Shown in pieces: positions 522 to 8,299 of a stretch of 9,389 nt of DNA (its first letter is position 1; the number at the start of each line of letters is the position of its first letter). Location: NCBI GenBank assembly GCA_022566355.1, contig JADFJB010000153.1, forward strand, positions 1 through 9,389, given 5' to 3'. The notes below the pieces were generated by a model. It did not search any database. It was not told the origin of the DNA and was given only the letters and a program-made list of their open reading frames with translations. Both the position numbers and the translations under genes were made by a program. Origin of the DNA: a candidate division KSB1 bacterium (GTDB lineage: Bacteria; Zhuqueibacterota; JdFR-76; DREG01).

Positions 522-1589
522 ATGTTAGAAAAACTTATTGAAATCGAAACTCGTTTTGAGAATATAAATTCAGAGCTGAGTGATCCGGGAATCATGTCAG
601 ACATTGAGAATTATACCAAGCTGTCAAAGGAACAAAGTGAACTGGAACCACTGGTTAAAACAATACGCGAGTACAAATCTATATTAAAAAATATCAAAGA
701 TGATGAAGAGTTGCTAAAAGAAGATATTGAGATTGAGTTACGGGAAATGGCCGAAGTTGAATTAGAGGAGTTAAAATCTTCGCTAGACGAAATCGAAGAA
801 AAACTTAAAGTAATGCTGATTCCTAAAGATCCACAGGATAATAAAAATATTATCATGGAAATCCGTGCAGGGACCGGTGGTGATGAAGCGGGTTTATTTG
901 CTGGCGATCTGTTTCGAATGTATTCCCGATATTGTGAAAGGAAAGGTTGGAAAATCGAAATTCTCAATTCGAACCCACAAGGGATAGGCGGATTCAAAGA
1001 AATTGTTTTTAGTATCAATGGCACAGATGTTTATAGCATGCTTAAATTTGAGGGTGGAGTTCATCGGGTTCAACGTATTCCAACCACTGAATCCGGCGGT
1101 CGGATCCATACATCTGCCGCTTCGGTGGCGGTCTTGCCGGAAGCAGAGGAAGTGGATGTCGCAATCGATCCAAAGGAAATTCGTATCGATCTGTTTCGTG
1201 CTTCAGGCCCTGGAGGGCAGAGCGTAAATAAGGTAGAATCAGCCGTGCGGATTACACACATCCCAACAAATATCGTAGTATCTTGCCAGGATGAAAAATC
1301 CCAGCACAAAAATAGAACGAAAGCGATGAAAATCTTACGTGCTCGCTTGCTTGCCAAAAAGCAAGAAGAAGAAATGGCGAAAAGAGTAGCTGCACGCCGG
1401 GCAATGGTAAGTACCGGTGACCGAAGTGTAAAAATCAGAACATTTAATTATCCTCAAAACCGGGTCACGGACCACAGGATAAACCTAACCCTATATAAAT
1501 TGGAAATGATTCTTGATGGTGATCTTGATGCATTAATCGAAGAAATGCAGATTGCGTATCAGACGGAGCAACTTAAGCAAGCTAGTTGA
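522..1589 (+). CDS. prfA: Peptide chain release factor 1
   Basis: A 355-residue class I release factor that reads UAA and UAG in the ribosomal A site and triggers peptidyl-tRNA hydrolysis. The N-terminal third is an acidic helical domain (about 1-105). The codon-recognition region holds the P-x-T tripeptide as PTT (187-189), followed by the RF1-type GGRIHTSAASVAVLPE; RF2 would have SPF. The catalytic GGQ (231-233) lies in RASGPGGQSVNKVESAVRITH, and the basic C-terminal part is complete. Length is normal for RF1 (about 355-360). Start: TTG at 519 and ATG at 522 are adjacent and in frame; ATG gives the family-standard MLEKL N-terminus. The Shine-Dalgarno match is weak (GAGA at 511-514). It is probably transcribed from the extended -10 at 483-491. 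The product's GGQ glutamine is the substrate of PrmC, encoded two genes downstream. Confidence 0.97.
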   Translation: MLEKLIEIETRFENINSELSDPGIMSDIENYTKLSKEQSELEPLVKTIREYKSILKNIKDDEELLKEDIEIELREMAEVELEELKSSLDEIEEKLKVMLIPKDPQDNKNIIMEIRAGTGGDEAGLFAGDLFRMYSRYCERKGWKIEILNSNPQGIGGFKEIVFSINGTDVYSMLKFEGGVHRVQRIPTTESGGRIHTSAASVAVLPEAEEVDVAIDPKEIRIDLFRASGPGGQSVNKVESAVRITHIPTNIVVSCQDEKSQHKNRTKAMKILRARLLAKKQEEEMAKRVAARRAMVSTGDRSVKIRTFNYPQNRVTDHRINLTLYKLEMILDGDLDALIEEMQIAYQTEQLKQAS

Positions 1590-1696: not shown

Positions 1697-1867
1697 ATGA
1701 AGAAAATAGTCAACAAAGCTAAGAGCCATAAAGAAGCAGAAAAATGGGATATTAACCAACAAATACAGTTGACTCCTGCTGAAAGACAACCCATTGCTGC
1801 TGAACTCAAAAAAAGATTCTATGGAACAGATGTCCCAGATGTTAGAGAGGCTCATTCTAATATTTAA
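1697..1867 (+). CDS. Small charged protein, likely partner of an absent nucleotidyltransferase
   Basis: A 56-residue open frame between prfA and prmC, starting MKKIVNKAKSHKEAEKWD and ending GTDVPDVREAHSNI. It has no signal peptide or membrane segment. The layout is a short strand, then 'EAEKWD', then 'LTPAERQPIAAELKKRFYG'. It recalls a family of short proteins with an [EA]-E-x-x-D element and an LTPEER motif that are usually encoded just before a MNT/AbiEii-like nucleotidyltransferase in putative toxin-antitoxin modules. That relationship is from memory, not a search. No nucleotidyltransferase follows: only 52 bp separate its stop from prmC. It may therefore be an orphan antitoxin-like partner. 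No clear Shine-Dalgarno precedes the ATG, but an extended -10 lies 47 bp upstream. The coherent, protein-like composition argues for a real gene. Confidence 0.6.
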   Translation: MKKIVNKAKSHKEAEKWDINQQIQLTPAERQPIAAELKKRFYGTDVPDVREAHSNI

Positions 1868-1919
1868 AAAGACTCAATCTAGGCGAGAGTAAGCCATTCC
1901 TTAGTCAGAATAGGATATT

Positions 1920-2801
1920 ATGCAAACGAAAACCTCTCCCAAACTCTGGCGAATTGTTGAACTTCTTCAAACAACCACAGAATTTCTTCAAAAAAAATCA
2001 ATTGATAACCCACGTTTAAATGCAGAACTATTACTTTGTAAAGTTTTAGGAATTCAGCGAGTCGACTTATATGTGAATTATGATAGACCAATCTCTTCCC
2101 AGGAATTGCAGGAATACCGCGATTATATTCGTAGAAGGGCTTCTCGCGAACCTTTGCAATATGTCCTTGGGCAAACAGAGTTTATGTCATTAACTTTTAA
2201 GGTAAATCCGTCAATATTAATTCCGCGTCAAGACACCGAAACTTTGGTCGAATGGGTACTTGACCGATTTAATGGAAGACAAAATTTAAAAATATTAGAT
2301 TTGGGCACGGGTTCAGGTAATATAGCAGTTAGCCTCGCTTATTACTTAAATGAACCACAAATTACAGCGGTTGATATATCCCAAGAGGCATTAGAATCAG
2401 CTCAAGAGAATGCAAACCTTAACAAAGTCGATGATTGTATAAGTTTTATTCATTGCGATGTTTTGGATAGGCGCTTCGAGATAATAATGAATGATCGCTT
2501 TGATATTATTGTCGCTAATCCGCCATATATCCAGGAACAAGAATTCATGCAACTAGAGCCCGAAGTTAGAGAGTATGAACCCAGAATTGCTTTAGTAGGA
2601 CAGGATAAAGTTAATACATTTTCCCATCGGATATGTGAATTGGCGCCTCATCTATTAAAGGATAATGGTGAAGTGTTTGTTGAAATTGCCGCAGGACAAT
2701 CTGAAACAGTAGAAGCCATTTTTAAAAAAAACCGGTTTAAGTCTGTTCAGATTCGCAAAGATATTGCCGGTATTGAGCGGGTTGTATTAGCAAAGTTTTA
2801 A
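1920..2801 (+). CDS. prmC: Release factor glutamine N5-methyltransferase
   Basis: A 293-residue PrmC/HemK protein that uses S-adenosylmethionine to methylate the side-chain amide of the GGQ glutamine in release factors, raising termination efficiency. An N-terminal helical domain (about 1-90) for release-factor docking ends with REPLQYVLGQTEF (77-89). PRQDTE (102-107) follows. The class I methyltransferase fold starts with the SAM-binding loop LDLGTGSGN (126-134), has an acidic ribose-binding position in AVDIS (150-154), and carries the catalytic NPPY (200-203) that holds the target amide. Length is typical (275-300). ATG 1920 is preceded by TAGGA (1911-1915). Nearness to prfA, which encodes a substrate, is a common gene order, here interrupted by the 56-residue gene. 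No terminator is evident downstream. Confidence 0.96.
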   Translation: MQTKTSPKLWRIVELLQTTTEFLQKKSIDNPRLNAELLLCKVLGIQRVDLYVNYDRPISSQELQEYRDYIRRRASREPLQYVLGQTEFMSLTFKVNPSILIPRQDTETLVEWVLDRFNGRQNLKILDLGTGSGNIAVSLAYYLNEPQITAVDISQEALESAQENANLNKVDDCISFIHCDVLDRRFEIIMNDRFDIIVANPPYIQEQEFMQLEPEVREYEPRIALVGQDKVNTFSHRICELAPHLLKDNGEVFVEIAAGQSETVEAIFKKNRFKSVQIRKDIAGIERVVLAKF

Positions 2802-2813
2802 TTTGATCAAGGT

Positions 2814-2977
2814 GTAACTATTCAGCCATTAGCTTTTAGCTGTTGGCCTTTAGGAGACTGATGAGATTGTTTATCATTTTTTGTTTTATATTTAATTGAT
2901 CCATAATCACTTTTACAACTTTTGTTGGGATTAAATGCCAATTGCTAACAGCCAAATGCTAATAGCAGAACAGTTAC
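2814..2977. repeat. Imperfect inverted-repeat element between prmC and the mutase gene
   Basis: The left arm (2814-2847) and the reverse complement of the right arm (2944-2977) match at 28 of 34 positions without gaps. Both begin GTAACT and share ATTAGC and GCTGTT blocks. Allowing a 6-7 nt indel, the arms extend inward so that 2843-2852 matches the complement of 2932-2941 at 9 of 10 positions. About 80 AT-rich bases lie between, with no open frame. The left arm can also fold alone (GCCA 2825-2828 with TGGC 2844-2847; AGCT 2831-2834 with AGCT 2838-2841). It has the look of a non-coding MITE- or REP-like dispersed element. It fills most of the 273-bp gap between prmC and the mutase gene. Confidence 0.75.
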
Positions 2978-3003
2978 AAAAAAGGCATTAAAAGATTTAT
3001 AAT
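2974..3003 (+). promoter_or_regulatory. Possible promoter for the phosphohexomutase operon
   Basis: TTACAA (2974-2979), an 18-nt spacer and a perfect TATAAT (2998-3003) lie 71 bp upstream of the mutase ATG. The -35 box overlaps the right end of the inverted-repeat element, so the element may have supplied part of the promoter. No other good site is visible in this gap. Confidence 0.37.
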
Positions 3004-3029
3004 ATGAACTTGGAGCCTTTGAGTCTTGT

Positions 3030-3042
3030 GGCTGAATAGGTA
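3030..3042. repeat. Third copy of the inverted-repeat end motif
   Basis: GGCTGAATAGGTA, read on the other strand, matches 12 of 13 bases of the outer end of the preceding inverted repeat (2815-2827). It is preceded by TTTGAGTCTTGTG, which recalls from memory a 'CTTTGTGGCTGAATAGTTAC'-like dispersed repeat of environmental bacteria. It may be the true outer border of a composite element spanning roughly 2814-3042. Confidence 0.4.
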
Positions 3043-3074
3043 TGTTCAGGTTAAGAAAGAATATGGAGTAATGA

Positions 3075-4460
3075 ATGAACCAAGCTATTTTTCGAGAATA
3101 CGATATACGTGGAATCGCAGATACGGATCTAACTGACGAAGTAGCAAATGCAATCGGAAAAGCCTATGGAACCTATGTGAAGCGCAAAGAAGCCAAATCA
3201 GTCTCTGTCGGTTGTGATGTGCGTTTGACATCACCGCGATTAAAAGCTGCAGTTATTGAAGGGATTCAAACAACCGGAGTTAATATTGTTGACGTTGGCA
3301 CTGTTCCGACCCCGGTGCTGTATTTTTCGGTGTTTCATTACGATACTGATGGTGGTATGATGATAACCGGCAGCCACAATCCCATAGAATATAATGGCTT
3401 CAAAATGAATATGAAAAGCGGATCGGTCTTTGGACAAGAAATTCAGGTACTTAAACAGTTCATCCAAACCAATGATTTTGAAAATGGAGACTCTAACATA
3501 AGATCTGAAAATGCAGTTCCCGCTTATGTAAGTATGCTTAATGAAAAATTCAATTTCTCAAAGAAACTTAAAATGATTATGGATCCAGGCAATGGGACCG
3601 CAGGTCCTCTGGCAAGCTCTTTCTTTATTAATAAAGGGATGGATGTTGATTGTATTTTTTGTGAACCTGATGGGAATTTTCCAAACCACTTACCGGATCC
3701 AACGGTGCTCAAATATACCAAGGCATTACGTGCAAAGGTTATTGAAAGCGGAGCAGATATTGGTATCGGTTATGATGGCGATTCGGACCGATTGGGAGTC
3801 ATTGATAATTTAGGCCGGCCAATTTTTGCAGACCGTTTGCTCGCAATAATGGCCCGGGATTTACTATCAAGACACCCAGGGGAAAAGATAATATTCGACG
3901 TGAAATGCTCTCAAAGCCTTGTGGATGAAATCAAAAAATATGGCGGTATCCCCTTAATGTGGAAGACCGGTCATGCCATTCTGAAAAGTAAAATGAAAGA
4001 GGAAAATTCATTGTTGGCTGGAGAAATGTCCGGTCATATTTTCTTTGGTGAAAATTATTATGGATTTGATGATGCCATTTATGCCTCCGCATTGATGATT
4101 CGTATTCTGTGTGAATCCGACAAAACTATTGCAGAAATTGTCGATGAAATCCCAGCATTTTATTCAACCCCGGAAGTTCGTGTGGAATGCTCTGATGAGG
4201 AGAAATTCAAGATCGTAGACGATCTTGTACACTATTTTAAGTCGAGGTATGAAGTGATTGACGTGGATGGAGTGCGTGCTTTATTTGGCGATGGCTGGGG
4301 TCTGGTTCGTGCATCAAATACCCAGCCGGCTCTAGTTCTACGAATGGAAGCAAAAACGGAAGAGCGATTAAAGGAAATTATCGAGATTTTTCTGAATAAG
4401 CTTAGAGAATTTCCATCTGTGAAAGTAAATGAGGAAGATTTTGTTATTGTTAAAGGTTGA
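3075..4460 (+). CDS. Phosphomannomutase/phosphoglucomutase
   Basis: A 461-residue cytosolic alpha-D-phosphohexomutase of the AlgC/ManB type, interconverting hexose 6-phosphate and 1-phosphate (mannose and/or glucose) to feed sugar-nucleotide and polysaccharide synthesis. All four domain signatures are present in order: N-terminal FREYDIRG (6-13); the catalytic phosphoserine loop TGSHNP with S100; the metal loop DGDSDR with D234, D236 and D238; the sugar-selecting GEMSGH (316-321), where E317 and S319 contact hydroxyls; and the C-terminal phosphate-binding RASNTQP (412-418). Length and domain set are complete. ATG 3075 has GGAG at 3065-3068, 6 nt upstream; an ATG at 3071 is out of frame. The 88-residue gene follows after 6 bp and is probably co-transcribed. 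Mannose versus glucose preference cannot be decided from sequence, so no symbol is given. Confidence 0.94.
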   Translation: MNQAIFREYDIRGIADTDLTDEVANAIGKAYGTYVKRKEAKSVSVGCDVRLTSPRLKAAVIEGIQTTGVNIVDVGTVPTPVLYFSVFHYDTDGGMMITGSHNPIEYNGFKMNMKSGSVFGQEIQVLKQFIQTNDFENGDSNIRSENAVPAYVSMLNEKFNFSKKLKMIMDPGNGTAGPLASSFFINKGMDVDCIFCEPDGNFPNHLPDPTVLKYTKALRAKVIESGADIGIGYDGDSDRLGVIDNLGRPIFADRLLAIMARDLLSRHPGEKIIFDVKCSQSLVDEIKKYGGIPLMWKTGHAILKSKMKEENSLLAGEMSGHIFFGENYYGFDDAIYASALMIRILCESDKTIAEIVDEIPAFYSTPEVRVECSDEEKFKIVDDLVHYFKSRYEVIDVDGVRALFGDGWGLVRASNTQPALVLRMEAKTEERLKEIIEIFLNKLREFPSVKVNEEDFVIVKG

Positions 4461-4466
4461 ACTTGC

Positions 4467-4733
4467 ATGAGAACGCAATCTTCAGATACACATCCGGAAG
4501 TTGAAAGAATTTTAATTGATCTTACTCGAAAAGTAACGGTTGCAGAGAAATTCTCCCAGGTTCGGGAGCTTTCAAACATGGCCATGCAATTATCAAGGCG
4601 GGCAATTGCAAGGGCTAATCCCGGGTTATCAGAGAACGAAGTTGACCTTCTCTTCGTAAAGTACCATTATGGAGATGACGTAGCTAATCGACTAAAAAAT
4701 CATCTTGAGAAAAGACAAGATGAAAAGCGTTGA
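4467..4733 (+). CDS. Small helical protein of unknown function, likely nucleotidyltransferase partner
   Basis: An 88-residue protein containing PEVERILIDLTRK (10-22), AEKFSQVRELS (26-36) and SRRAIARANPGLSENEVD (43-60), then LLFVKYHYGDDVANRL. It is probably all helical and cytosolic, rich in charged residues. I recall this as a recurrent small protein family in environmental bacteria and cyanobacteria. Members there are typically encoded directly before a nucleotidyltransferase-fold protein whose start reads like 'IPY-VGGS-AS'. That recollection fits what lies here: the next frame (4720-4821) starts inside this gene and looks like the beginning of such a partner, then ends early. AAAGG (4452-4456) inside the end of the mutase gene is the likely ribosome site, suggesting translational coupling to it. 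The biochemical function is unknown; a toxin-antitoxin-like role is inference only. Confidence 0.78.
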   Translation: MRTQSSDTHPEVERILIDLTRKVTVAEKFSQVRELSNMAMQLSRRAIARANPGLSENEVDLLFVKYHYGDDVANRLKNHLEKRQDEKR

Positions 4734-4821
4734 CCTTTTATCAGCTTTGCATCCCATCACTATAGCCTTTGAAAAATTATCAATTCCTTATTTCAAGGCT
4801 TTTGAAGAATCATCCAATTAG
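4720..4821 (+). pseudogene. Truncated stump of a nucleotidyltransferase-like partner gene
   Basis: A 33-codon frame starting at ATG 4720, overlapping the last 14 bp of the preceding gene as in translationally coupled pairs. Residues 1-17 (MKSVDLLSALHPITIAF) and then EKLSIPYF (18-25) look like the N-terminus of an MNT-type nucleotidyltransferase, in which the next residues would be the active-site GGS region. Instead the frame reads KAFEESSN and stops. The final residues resemble the acidic helical tail expected at the C-terminus of such proteins, so an in-frame internal deletion joining both ends is possible. The overlap and the protein-like sequence are seen directly; the family assignment is from memory. 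It could alternatively be a genuine small peptide. No further coding trace is visible from 4822 to rnr. Confidence 0.55.
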
Positions 4822-4873
4822 ACTTTTATCAATTTCACATTTGAACAATCAAATCAAAATAATCTAATTCCAA

Positions 4874-7021
4874 ATGAGTTTAACCAAATCATCAAAAATT
4901 CAATTCAAAAAACAAATTGTTGAGATATTATCATCTCAGCCATCGACAAAATTTAAAAGTAAAACGATCGCTCGTACGCTTAAAGTTTCGAGTGATGATT
5001 ATGTGGATTTTCGGAATTTCTTACGAGATTTATCCCGAAATGATGTCATTACGAAAACCGGGACAAACGCTTACCAATATCGAGAAAAGCCGCAGTTGGT
5101 CGTTGGGAAATTGAGTGTGAAAACCCAGGGCTATGGTTTTGTGCAACTGGAAGACAGAGAAATATTTGTGAGTCAACGCAACATGACAACCGCCATTGAT
5201 GGAGATACGGTTGCCGTTCATTTATATGCAAAATCACGAGATGGCAAACTTCCAGAAGGAAAAATTGATCACATCATTGAAAGAAAAAGGAAATATATTG
5301 TCGGAACGTATAAGCATGGTAAATACTTTAATTTTGTAGCTCCAGATGATCGAAAAATTCCTTGGGACATCATTATACACGACAGTTTTGCGAAGAATGC
5401 CCAACCAGGACAGAAAGTAGCTGTGACCCTGGATTATTGGGAAGATAGCAGTTTAAATCCCACAGGACGAATTGAAGAGGTGCTGGGTTTCTCCAAGGAC
5501 CCCGGTGTTGATGTTACCTCAGTTGCATTTAAATTCAACCTGCCATTTAAATTTCCTAAAAAAGTAGAAGCTGAATGTGAAAGATTAACCGGAAAAATTA
5601 CTCCTTCGGATCTGCAAGGCAGGTTGGATTTCAGAAAGAGAGTTTGTTTTACAATCGATCCGAAAGATGCAAAGGATTTTGATGATGCTGTCTCTCTGGA
5701 AACTTTGGATGATGGCAATTTGATGTTGGGCGTCCATATCGCCGACGTAAGCCATTATATTCAAGATGGTACAAGTCTTGATAAGGAAGCTTTGAGCAGG
5801 GCAACGAGTGTTTATATGGTCGATCGTGTGATTCCCATGTTGCCCGAAAAAATTTCCAACGAAATTTGTAGTTTAAGGGCAAACGAAGACCGCCTGACTT
5901 TTAGTGTAATGATGAAAATTACTCCGGATGGCCGCAGGTTGGATTATAAAATTCAACCATCCGTTATTAATAGCAACCGCCGGTTTAATTACGAAGAGGT
6001 GCAGAAAATTATCGATGACGGCCAGGGAGATTATTTTGATGAGTTACGACAATTGCGTGATCTTAGCCAGAAACTATTCAGCAAACGGTTGAAAGCGGGG
6101 AGTCTGGATTTCGATTTACCGGAAGCAAAAATTGAATTGAATGACCTGGGAGAACCGATTGACATTCGTCGAAGCGAGAGATTGGATAGCCATCATTTGA
6201 TTGAAGAATTTATGTTGTTGGCCAACAAAACCATCAGTGAGCACATAGCCATGACCTTAACACAGCAGCGGCAATTGTCTAAATTATTGCCGTTCATTTA
6301 CCGGATTCATGAAAAACCGGATGCGAAAAAAATAACAAATTTCGAAAATTTAGTGCGTAGTCTCGGTATTAATTTCCAACGAAGAAAGCGAATATCACCC
6401 AAACAGCTGCAAGAAGTGATTCATTCGGTACGTGGTTTACCGGAAGAAGATATTATTAATCATGTTATGTTGCGTTCGCTGATGAAAGCTAAATACGATA
6501 CAAAAAATGTAGGACATTTTGGGCTTGCATTTAAACATTACACCCATTTCACGTCACCCATTCGCCGTTATCCGGACCTGGTTGTTCACCGCCTTCTTAA
6601 GGAATATGCCGAATTTCCTTCTGAAAAAAGAATTGCCAAGATAAAAAGCAAGCTTCCCGAAGTTTGTCGAATTTCGAACGAACAGGAAATTAATGCCTTG
6701 GAAGCCGAACGTGAATCTATAAAGATCATGCAAGCAAAATTCATGGTTAATAAAATGGGTGAGAGCTATGATGGCATCATTTCCGGCATCGTTCCTTTTG
6801 GAATTTTTGTGGAGATCGTTGACTACTTAGTAGAAGGGCTGGTGCATATTAAAGATTTGGCCGGTGATTACTATATTCATGATGAACCGAATTATCGTTT
6901 GATTGGCCAAAAAACCGGGAAAACATATCGCTTGGGGGATCGGGTAAAAATTCAGGTCGTTAAAGTAGTTCCCGAACAAAAGATGATTGATTTTAAATTG
7001 ATTGAAGATGAGGAGGAATGA
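4874..7021 (+). CDS. rnr: Ribonuclease R
   Basis: A 715-residue 3'-5' exoribonuclease of the RNase II/R (RNB) family, which degrades structured RNA and takes part in rRNA quality control and mRNA decay. Domains: an N-terminal winged-helix region (about 1-70); cold-shock/OB domains (about 75-205), including GKLSVKTQGYGFV (78-90) and IFVSQRNM; the RNB catalytic domain (about 250-580) with IDPKDAKDFDDA (261-272), whose D262, D268, D270 and D271 bind the catalytic metals; the family signature HYTHFTSPIRRYPDLVVHR (555-573); and a C-terminal S1 domain (about 631-711). The Lys-rich tail of enterobacterial RNase R is absent; the protein ends EDEEE right after S1. ATG 4874 begins the expected N-terminus, but no Shine-Dalgarno is visible in the AT-rich leader. 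AGGAGG near its stop (7011-7016) probably serves the next gene. Confidence 0.97.
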   Translation: MSLTKSSKIQFKKQIVEILSSQPSTKFKSKTIARTLKVSSDDYVDFRNFLRDLSRNDVITKTGTNAYQYREKPQLVVGKLSVKTQGYGFVQLEDREIFVSQRNMTTAIDGDTVAVHLYAKSRDGKLPEGKIDHIIERKRKYIVGTYKHGKYFNFVAPDDRKIPWDIIIHDSFAKNAQPGQKVAVTLDYWEDSSLNPTGRIEEVLGFSKDPGVDVTSVAFKFNLPFKFPKKVEAECERLTGKITPSDLQGRLDFRKRVCFTIDPKDAKDFDDAVSLETLDDGNLMLGVHIADVSHYIQDGTSLDKEALSRATSVYMVDRVIPMLPEKISNEICSLRANEDRLTFSVMMKITPDGRRLDYKIQPSVINSNRRFNYEEVQKIIDDGQGDYFDELRQLRDLSQKLFSKRLKAGSLDFDLPEAKIELNDLGEPIDIRRSERLDSHHLIEEFMLLANKTISEHIAMTLTQQRQLSKLLPFIYRIHEKPDAKKITNFENLVRSLGINFQRRKRISPKQLQEVIHSVRGLPEEDIINHVMLRSLMKAKYDTKNVGHFGLAFKHYTHFTSPIRRYPDLVVHRLLKEYAEFPSEKRIAKIKSKLPEVCRISNEQEINALEAERESIKIMQAKFMVNKMGESYDGIISGIVPFGIFVEIVDYLVEGLVHIKDLAGDYYIHDEPNYRLIGQKTGKTYRLGDRVKIQVVKVVPEQKMIDFKLIEDEEE

Positions 7022-7025
7022 AAGA

Positions 7026-7457
7026 TTGAATGCAAAATTTACTAACTTATGGAGTGCATCAACAGTGTTGATGCGTAAGAACAAAGATATGTTTCTATCC
7101 GTCATCGCAGCAAGGTGAATTCTAGTCGCTATCGGCATAGTATTTTTCGTTAGCGGGCTAATAGTAACCAGCATGAATTTGGCGAAAGTGATCCCCGCCA
7201 GCTACAATTGGCAAGGGCCTGTTTTCCTAATATTAGGCGTTGCAGGTATTGCAACCGCGTATTTCGGTCTGAGGCCAGTGCGACCCTGGGCGTTAATCGT
7301 ACTTGCGTTGGTTTACATTCCGTGGACGGTAATTGGCTTTATCGGTGATATTGGTCAAGGTTTTTGGCCCTTGGTAATTGGAGAAGCGGCTGGACTGGTC
7401 CTGGGATTGTTGGCATTCACCGTCTTATGGAAACAGATATTGCAGAGAGAAAAATAA
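7026..7457 (+). pseudogene. Four-helix membrane protein gene with in-frame TGA
   Basis: One frame runs from TTG 7026 (or ATG 7071) to the TAA at 7455-7457 and is interrupted by a single TGA at 7116-7118. Before it the frame reads MRKNKDMFLSVIAAR; after it ILVAIGIVFFVSGLIVTS, which is clearly the rest of a first transmembrane helix. Three more helices follow: GPVFLILGVAGIATAYFGL, WALIVLALVYIPWTVIGFI and FWPLVIGEAAGLVLGLLAF, then a basic end. AGGAGG (7011-7016), 9 nt before TTG 7026, supports that start. The downstream ATG 7173 would give a 94-residue three-helix product lacking the first helix, so a shortened protein may still be made. TGA is a normal stop for prfA, the mutase and rnr here, so recoding is unlikely. 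Either a nonsense mutation or a sequencing error explains it. I do not recognise the family. Confidence 0.65.
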
Positions 7458-7487
7458 TGCATAAAAAGACAAAGTTGATTCTATAAA

Positions 7488-7565
7488 AATTTAAAATCCA
7501 GGGCGAAATTTTTGTTAGTTTTTTGTGCATCATAACGCTATATTTCATCATCACAAAATGTATGA
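7488..7565. repeat. Direct repeat, copy A (78 bp)
   Basis: This 78-bp segment matches copy B (8222-8299) at 64 of 78 positions without gaps, in the same orientation. It includes the shared block AGGGCGAAATT and a TATATT -10-like box. It lies between the membrane-protein gene and the DUF4160 gene, so the two copies bracket the DUF4160/DUF2442 pair. ATCATA (7529-7534) and TATGAT (7561-7566) form an inverted repeat around the -10-like box. Confidence 0.75.
7516..7544 (+). promoter_or_regulatory. Possible promoter of the DUF4160/DUF2442 module
   Basis: TAGTTT (7516-7521), a 17-nt spacer and TATATT (7539-7544). The same arrangement with a better -35 box recurs in repeat copy B. A 6-bp inverted repeat (7529-7534 with 7561-7566) spans the -10-like box and could be an operator, as expected for an autoregulated toxin-antitoxin-like unit. 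No experimental or comparative support is available here. Confidence 0.33.
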
Positions 7566-7628
7566 TCATATTAGGAAATATCAGCAGGGCCAAATTATTT
7601 TAGATTTAACAATTGATTGGATTCGTAT

Positions 7629-7884
7629 ATGCCAGTAATTGCAAGATTTTATGGAATAGTTATTAAGACGTATTTCAGTCAAAGTGAACATGGTAATCCA
7701 CACTTTCATGCGATTTATGGTGAATATAATGGTGTTTTTAATATTGAAACTCTCGAAATAATTGAGAGTGACTTGCCAATGCGTGCACAACGGTAAGTAA
7801 AAGAGTGAGGCATCGCTTTATAAAAGTGATTTATTGAAGATTTGGAACGAACAAAATTTTAAGAAACTCCCTGGATTGGAGTAA
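7629..7884 (+). pseudogene. DUF4160 protein gene, inactivated
   Basis: The frame from ATG 7629 reads a typical DUF4160 N-terminus: MPVIARFYGIVIKTYF, then SEHGNPHFHAIYGEY, IETLEIIESDLPMRAQR. It stops at TAA 7794-7796 after 55 residues. One base change (TTA to TAA) would restore a Leu there. The following codons read V-K-E, and removing one base within 7806-7810 (TGAGG, expected TGGG) restores the rest: W-A-S, then LYKSDLLKIWNEQNFKKL, then P-G-L-E and stop at 7882-7884. The corrected product has 84 residues, the usual DUF4160 length. So one nonsense change and one 1-bp insertion separate this from an intact gene. DUF4160 genes are often paired with DUF2442, as here, in putative toxin-antitoxin units; biochemical function is not established. 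GGA at 7619-7621 is a weak ribosome site. Confidence 0.88.
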
Positions 7885-7889
7885 TAAAG

Positions 7890-8153
7890 ATGACTAAAAT
7901 CCCCAAGATAAAACATGTCCGAGCAAAAGATAATTTTCATCTTATAGTTAAGTTTGATAATGATTTGGAAAAAGAATATGATTGTCAACAAATTCTACAT
8001 CGCCCTGAATTTAAACCTCTTCTGAATAAAGCTTTTTTTCGTTCAGTGAAGGTTGATAGTGGTGGTTATGGTGTATCATGGAATGATGATATAGATTTAA
8101 GTGAATATGAATTATGGGTAAATGGAAAAAATATTCGAGATAATAGTAATTAG
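7890..8153 (+). CDS. DUF2442 domain protein, intact partner of broken DUF4160
   Basis: An 87-residue protein with the complete DUF2442 pattern: an N-terminal strand region (IKHVRAKDNFHLIVKFDN), EYDCQQIL, PLLNKAFFRSVKVD, and the hallmark GGYGVSWNDDIDLSEYELW near the C-terminus. The ATG lies 5 bp after the stop of the DUF4160 remnant, with GGAG (7878-7881) 8 nt upstream inside the end of that remnant. The two genes were clearly one operon. DUF2442 proteins commonly accompany DUF4160 and are treated as candidate antitoxins or DNA-binding regulators; this is family context, not proof. No stop or frameshift is present, in contrast to its partner. The nonsense codon upstream may reduce its translation if the two were coupled. 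Confidence 0.92.
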   Translation: MTKIPKIKHVRAKDNFHLIVKFDNDLEKEYDCQQILHRPEFKPLLNKAFFRSVKVDSGGYGVSWNDDIDLSEYELWVNGKNIRDNSN

Positions 8154-8221: not shown

Positions 8222-8299
8222 AATTTAAAAATCAGGGCGAAATTGTTGTTTGTTTTTCATGTTTCATATCGGTATATTATATCATTACAAAATATATGA
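8222..8299. repeat. Direct repeat, copy B (78 bp)
   Basis: This is the second copy of the segment at 7488-7565, 734 bp downstream, same orientation, 82% identical without gaps. Its inverted repeat is TTCATA (8263-8268) with TATGAA (8295-8300). The outer base pair differs from copy A (T-A instead of A-T), yet pairing is kept. No intact gene follows it directly. Confidence 0.75.
8250..8278 (+). promoter_or_regulatory. Promoter-like site in repeat copy B
   Basis: TTGTTT (8250-8255), a 17-nt spacer and TATATT (8273-8278) give 4/6 and 5/6 consensus matches. It aligns exactly with the site in copy A. It is followed by the 12-codon frame at 8388 and, 299 bp on, by the glycosyltransferase start. Confidence 0.37.

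Follow-up and report, generated by a model that had tools for sequence, protein, structure and literature searches.

The best-described relatives of the gene pairs considered here are two toxin/antitoxin (TA) systems. DhiTA, a type II system of Dickeya dadantii (PMC8198452) and of Thermus plasmids (PMC12724237), consists of adjacent genes in toxin-first order, the DUF4160 protein having been shown to be the toxin and the DUF2442 protein the antitoxin in Dickeya and E. coli (PMC8198452), while in Thermus constructs lacking DUF4160 could be introduced and those lacking DUF2442 could not (PMC12724237). In MenAT1 (Rv0078B-Rv0078A) of Mycobacterium tuberculosis the small antitoxin gene comes first and is followed by an NTase of ~197 aa (PMC10435456). 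A third kind, in which a DUF6036 NTase follows a small upstream partner, has no experimentally studied member in the literature searched. One module related to each of these kinds is present in the stretch of DNA analysed here (the window), in each case with the small partner intact and its partner lost, as the first-pass annotation had said on the basis of the sequence and its open reading frames.

The window is the whole of contig C153 (9389 bp) of a 4.6-Mb metagenome-assembled genome (MAG) that is 98.5% complete, and all features given below lie on its forward strand. Its backbone is a host operon that begins with rpmE (ribosomal protein L31; 193..405; PF01197, E=4.7e-33; synteny with G002, G004, G005 and G006) and continues with prfA (release factor 1; 522..1589; PF03462/PF00472), prmC (release factor methyltransferase; 1920..2801; PF17827), pgm (phosphoglucomutase/phosphomannomutase; 3075..4460; PF02878-PF02880, PF00408) and rnr (RNase R; 4874..7021; PF00773, E=5.8e-112), all likewise identified by domain and synteny. 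Other members of the family and of the order keep this gene arrangement wherever their contigs show it; onto it the three modules have been added, modules 1 and 2 lying inside the cluster and module 3 just 3' of it. The prfA-prmC gap measures 37-45 bp in G002 and G004 against 330 bp in the window, where it contains module 1, and the short gap of these two relatives is the empty insertion site of that module. The G002 copy of module 2 is found on a different contig between unrelated genes, and thus the modules are mobile. The pgm-rnr gap of G002 holds a different module, composed of an intact MNT-type NTase and HEPN-looking fragments. No RNA families or tRNAs were found in the window. The surviving small genes now have release-factor and RNase R genes as their neighbours.

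Module 3 shares with DhiTA both Pfam domains, the adjacency of the genes and the toxin-first order. A DhiT-type (DUF4160) toxin pseudogene (7629..7883, from its translation; PF13711, E=9.6e-10) is followed directly by an intact DhiA-type (DUF2442) antitoxin gene (7890..8153; PF10387, E=1.2e-11), both matches being above the Pfam cut-offs. It differs from DhiTA in that the toxin gene is interrupted by stops at 7794-7796 and 7806-7808 and by a frame change near 7818-7826, after which toxin-like sequence runs on in another frame to 7883. These are three lesions, where the first-pass annotation had recorded two. Since the DhiT equivalog NF048015 scores 62.2 bits (E=5e-17, on the shortened 55-aa frame) against an NCBIfam cut-off of 100, we file this gene as a DhiT-like remnant and not as DhiT. 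The partner lost was also said to be the larger one, which holds for modules 1 and 2 but not here, where a toxin of ~85 aa precedes an antitoxin of 87 aa. The antitoxin role of the DUF2442 protein has been shown elsewhere, by experiments in DhiTA relatives, and is the probable role here. Two direct repeats of 78 nt, 82% identical to one another, flank the module on its 5' (7488..7565) and 3' (8222..8299) sides and have no further copy in the genome; a genome search with a 148-bp stretch that includes the flanking repeat also returned only the two window copies.

Elsewhere in this genome the same family has fared similarly. Only one of its eight DUF2442 genes (on C105) lies beside an intact DUF4160 gene, the other DUF4160 copies being frameshifted (C54), 5'-truncated (C129) or the window copy itself, and no DUF4160 was detected beside the remaining four DUF2442 genes. 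This low proportion argues for a fast turnover of such modules, as had been proposed. A plasmid search placed DUF4160 on 42 plasmid records, whereas neither the module-1 nor the module-2 small protein had a match there.

In module 2 the intact 88-aa gene (4467..4733) encodes a putative antitoxin whose homologues precede an NTase (NTase2). The protein matches PF18993, the Rv0078B antitoxin family, with E=7.6e-4 and 19.9 bits, below the 27.1-bit gathering cut-off, and we claim no membership of that family for it, only that it would work like MenA1. In seven genomes the relatives of this module carry an NTase of ~197 aa 3' of the small gene, in the gene order of MenAT1. When the NTase profiles were searched against PDB sequences only 5uvd (E 0.04) was returned, so a comparison of folds was needed. 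The best solved match to an AlphaFold model of the G006 NTase (pLDDT 87.7) is MenT1 (8an4; Z 16.4, rmsd 3.2, 177/195 residues), and T-x-D, K and D of the relatives' NTases align to T39, D41, K137 and D152 of MenT1, the catalytic residues of which were taken from PMC10435456, with D43, K138 and D155 conserved. These active-site residues and this fold belong to the relatives, whereas the NTase of the window is reduced to a stump of 33 aa (4720..4821) that is devoid of the whole catalytic core, including all active-site residues; the antitoxin too differs from that of MenAT1, with 88 against 68 aa and a similarity below the Pfam cut-off. By homology to MenAT1-like systems the small gene is a predicted antitoxin. 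The first ~24 aa of the stump align to NTase2, and the tail KAFEESS is similar to the C-terminal end of the NTase (7-9 residues; p ~1e-3), which makes an in-frame internal deletion likelier than a plain truncation. The stump is thus a remnant, as first described, although probably one left by an internal deletion. A comparable deletion is seen in G007, where residues 1-45 and 143-196 of the NTase are left.

Module 1 is represented by an intact 56-aa gene alone (1697..1867), the product of which has no Pfam match. It ends only ~53 bp before prmC at 1920, and neither reading of the sequence nor the NTase1 HMM revealed an NTase remnant in the expected site between them (1868..1919). Homologues, found among 82 genomes of this phylum and on 14 public contigs (of Ignavibacteria, Balneolaceae, Aminicenantes, Deltaproteobacteria, Omnitrophota and others), pair a protein of 54-61 aa with a DUF6036-like NTase of ~160 aa directly 3' of it, PF19502 (DUF6036) being above its cut-off for two of them. 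The partner that the first-pass annotation had supposed from the context of the family is thereby confirmed, both genes being intact at eight loci (6 close, 2 more distant); the window differs in that its NTase is absent. A structural model of a module-1 NTase (pLDDT 80.6, the active-site loop being weak) has its best matches in TM1012 (Z 11.2) and MenT1 (Z 10.7). Of the PADLOC defence models only AbiEii gave a hit, a weak one, and this in a relative's module-1 NTase. By analogy we regard the toxin and antitoxin roles in this module as putative.

Three losses in the same direction within one window are in themselves weak evidence, as a coin toss would give them with a probability of 0.125, and it is the counts from related genomes that carry the weight, although the loci counted come from genomes that share ancestry and are not independent events. 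Since a search that starts from the small gene is blind to losses of the small gene, NTase-anchored and DUF4160-anchored searches were run beside the small-gene-anchored ones. For module 1, besides the eight intact pairs, the small gene is intact beside an NTase with a stop or frameshift at three loci (L004, L122, L124), intact without an NTase at four (the window, L121, L128, L129) and degraded without an NTase at two (L006, L007). The close subfamily of module 2 gives seven intact pairs; at six loci only the small gene is intact, its NTase being lost or broken, and at four the small gene is degraded and the NTase lost. An intact NTase whose small gene had been lost was found neither in this subfamily nor in the NTase-anchored search. 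In the corresponding search for module 1 the small gene was present beside every close NTase (three close loci only). Taken together, 13 loci of these two modules retain an intact small gene and have a lost or broken NTase, none shows the reverse, and six more have an orphan small gene that is degraded as well.

The survey of DUF4160/DUF2442 covered 119 genomes, the DUF2442 figures being those among the 150 matches listed, with toxins classed as partial left out of the strict DUF4160 counts. Stops or split frames affect 24/124 DUF4160 loci and stops affect 3/150 of the DUF2442 genes listed (Fisher p=1.7e-6). In adjacent pairs the lesion is on the toxin in 22 cases and on the antitoxin in 1 (p=6e-6), and in that lone pair (L266) the N-terminus of the toxin looks damaged too. 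The direction of decay is thus strongly biased in related genomes, toxin first, and what had been noticed in three places is general. Lesions produced by sequencing or binning errors of the metagenome assembly would be a trivial explanation for the window, the lesions of which rest on a single MAG contig from one assembly. Such errors should, however, be as frequent in antitoxin genes as in toxin genes of about the same length, which the counts of 24/124 and 3/150 listed contradict, nor is the deletion of the whole or most of an NTase a sequencing error, and the adjacent operon genes are intact; we judge this explanation extremely unlikely.

The tally of partners also bears on the view that the small genes are normally solitary and that nothing was lost. 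Orphans are indeed common, as 53/150 of the DUF2442 genes listed have no DUF4160 match, but most close homologues of the small genes have an intact partner 5' or 3', an intact DUF4160 adjoining at least 63 DUF2442 genes, and many of the seemingly solitary DUF2442 genes have a C-terminal scrap of DUF4160 directly 5' of them (L227, L241, L253, L256, L260, L261, L262). The DUF2442 subfamily that looks solitary includes the paired members L058 and L268, and the idea of an intrinsically solitary subfamily was dropped when these were found. For modules 2 and 3 the solitary view is refuted, and overall it is scarcely credible. Alternatively, the systems could be split, with toxins acting in trans from elsewhere in the genome, which does hold an intact DUF4160 (on C105) and a distant NTase (C9:53317-53775). 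The former, however, has its own DUF2442, the latter scores 103 bits where the close family exceeds 350, and no match in the genome to the module-1 NTase reached E 1e-15, which leaves a split arrangement very improbable.

We propose a model that most reasonably fits these observations and that we hold to be very probably correct. Three unrelated TA modules would have entered the chromosome in or beside the host cluster, after which their toxins were inactivated, by complete deletion in module 1, internal deletion in module 2 and stops with a frameshift in module 3, leaving antitoxins that can still be read. For modules 1 and 2 the mode of action would have been that of MenAT, with a small helical antitoxin bound to an NTase that may add nucleotides to the 3' ends of tRNA and so stop translation. 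Module 3 would have worked like DhiTA, its DUF4160 protein inhibiting growth and its DUF2442 protein neutralising it. In TA systems the loss of the antitoxin first releases the toxin, and only toxin-first losses survive. The direction of decay would thus be fixed, since a cell that loses the antitoxin first would be inhibited by the surviving toxin and the reverse order is lethal, whereas loss of the toxin would cost nothing and leave the antitoxin free to decay as a neutral leftover. Once three modules have decayed, three of three in one window is the expected outcome. As the bias is explained in this manner, a use for the leftover antitoxin is not needed, and toxin-first decay does not by itself show that the antitoxin is useful.

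The first-pass annotation had offered selection for keeping the antitoxin as one reading of the shared direction, and leftover antitoxins may indeed be retained by selection, serving against addiction (a role proposed in PMC7192599), in regulation or to inhibit related toxins such as that of the intact DhiTA on C105. In its favour, the small genes of the window score like their paired homologues (for the 56-aa gene, a leave-one-out HMM score inside the range of these), and two pairs of orphan DUF2442 genes, the members of each pair sharing a junction across two genomes, give dN/dS of 0.10 and 0.23 (L237/L238 and L243/L244; p=0.04 and 0.03). Since these two syntenic pairs are under purifying selection, the neutral fate in our model is not universal, and in some DUF2442 cases retention by selection is real. 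Other low pairwise dN/dS values were not counted, as they may predate the loss of the toxin. The window genes have no close relative in the data, and against other genera their synonymous sites are saturated or nearly so; the DhiT and DhiA orthologues of G048 and G053 show few changes in both genes. Against retention as a rule, the orphan small genes of modules 1 and 2 are themselves decaying at six loci, and toxin-less DUF2442 genes are scattered over their tree (37 changes against a shuffled mean of 38.4, on a poorly resolved tree of ~65-residue sequences), as expected for short-lived states. Selection is therefore not a necessary inference from the direction of decay, and as the general explanation we consider it possible but unlikely. 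It is more doubtful still that TA modules directed at translation have repeatedly landed in the rpmE-prfA-prmC-pgm-rnr cluster in this lineage, with the antitoxins kept as standing protection against incoming relatives.

The antitoxin-like nature ascribed to the small partners thus stands on experiments elsewhere for DhiTA, on homology for the MenAT1-like module and on analogy for module 1, and their orphan state has ample precedent. Toxins and antitoxins standing alone had been noted by 2009 (PMC2701414), Klebsiella (2253 occurrences; PMC7192599) and E. coli (PMC10790755) have abundant orphan antitoxins, and in the MenAT1 study 6/21 menA1 genes had no adjacent menT (PMC10435456). As such orphans are already widely reported, ours is an ordinary case of something known, well supported and well quantified. 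An uncultured phylum gains candidate modules of the MenAT1-like and DUF6036 types, and the case provides a clean natural count of the way in which TA modules are lost: the toxin goes first, in several unrelated families, through stops, frameshifts and deletions, which cautions against taking every orphan antitoxin to be a gene retained on purpose. The likeness to the Klebsiella and E. coli orphans lies in the plentiful antitoxins without a usable toxin; here, in contrast, the mode and direction of toxin loss have been counted in named families, with the remnants still visible.

The DhiTA-like module, a DUF4160 toxin pseudogene (7629-7883) followed by an intact DUF2442 antitoxin gene (7890-8153), is flanked on both sides by a 78-nt direct repeat (7488-7565 and 8222-8299) whose two copies are 82% identical. 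The repeat has no further copies genome-wide, which points to a duplication or an insertion/excision event. Upstream, at 7173-7457, lies a 94-aa membrane ORF whose in-frame 5′ extension is broken by a stop (region 7082-7457), which may be a further decaying gene.

At two other loci of the window genome (L099 on contig C129 and L095 on contig C33), DUF2442 is immediately preceded by a PIN-like ORF and its partner of 56/57 aa. On C129 this PIN-like ORF adjoins a DUF4160 gene truncated at its 5′ end, as if one module had been inserted over another. A solitary DUF2442 on contig C111 (L097) has a TIR-domain ORF (PF13676) upstream, and genome G080 (L246) shows a comparable layout in which the ORF looks TIR-like.

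In a sister genus, the 793-bp pgm-rnr gap (L287, G002:C5) is occupied by a different module from that in the window, an intact MNT-type nucleotidyltransferase gene (PF18765) followed by HEPN-looking fragments that lack their middle and for which Pfam gave no confirmation of a HEPN assignment.

An apparent in-frame DUF4160-DUF2442 fusion, having lost the DUF2442 N-terminus, lies at a contig end (L272, G047:C65). Two DUF4160 genes of genome G048 (L107 and L265) carry one stop apiece, and their inactivations are recent, since orthologues with 97-100% identical residues remain intact in the same genus (L264, G053).
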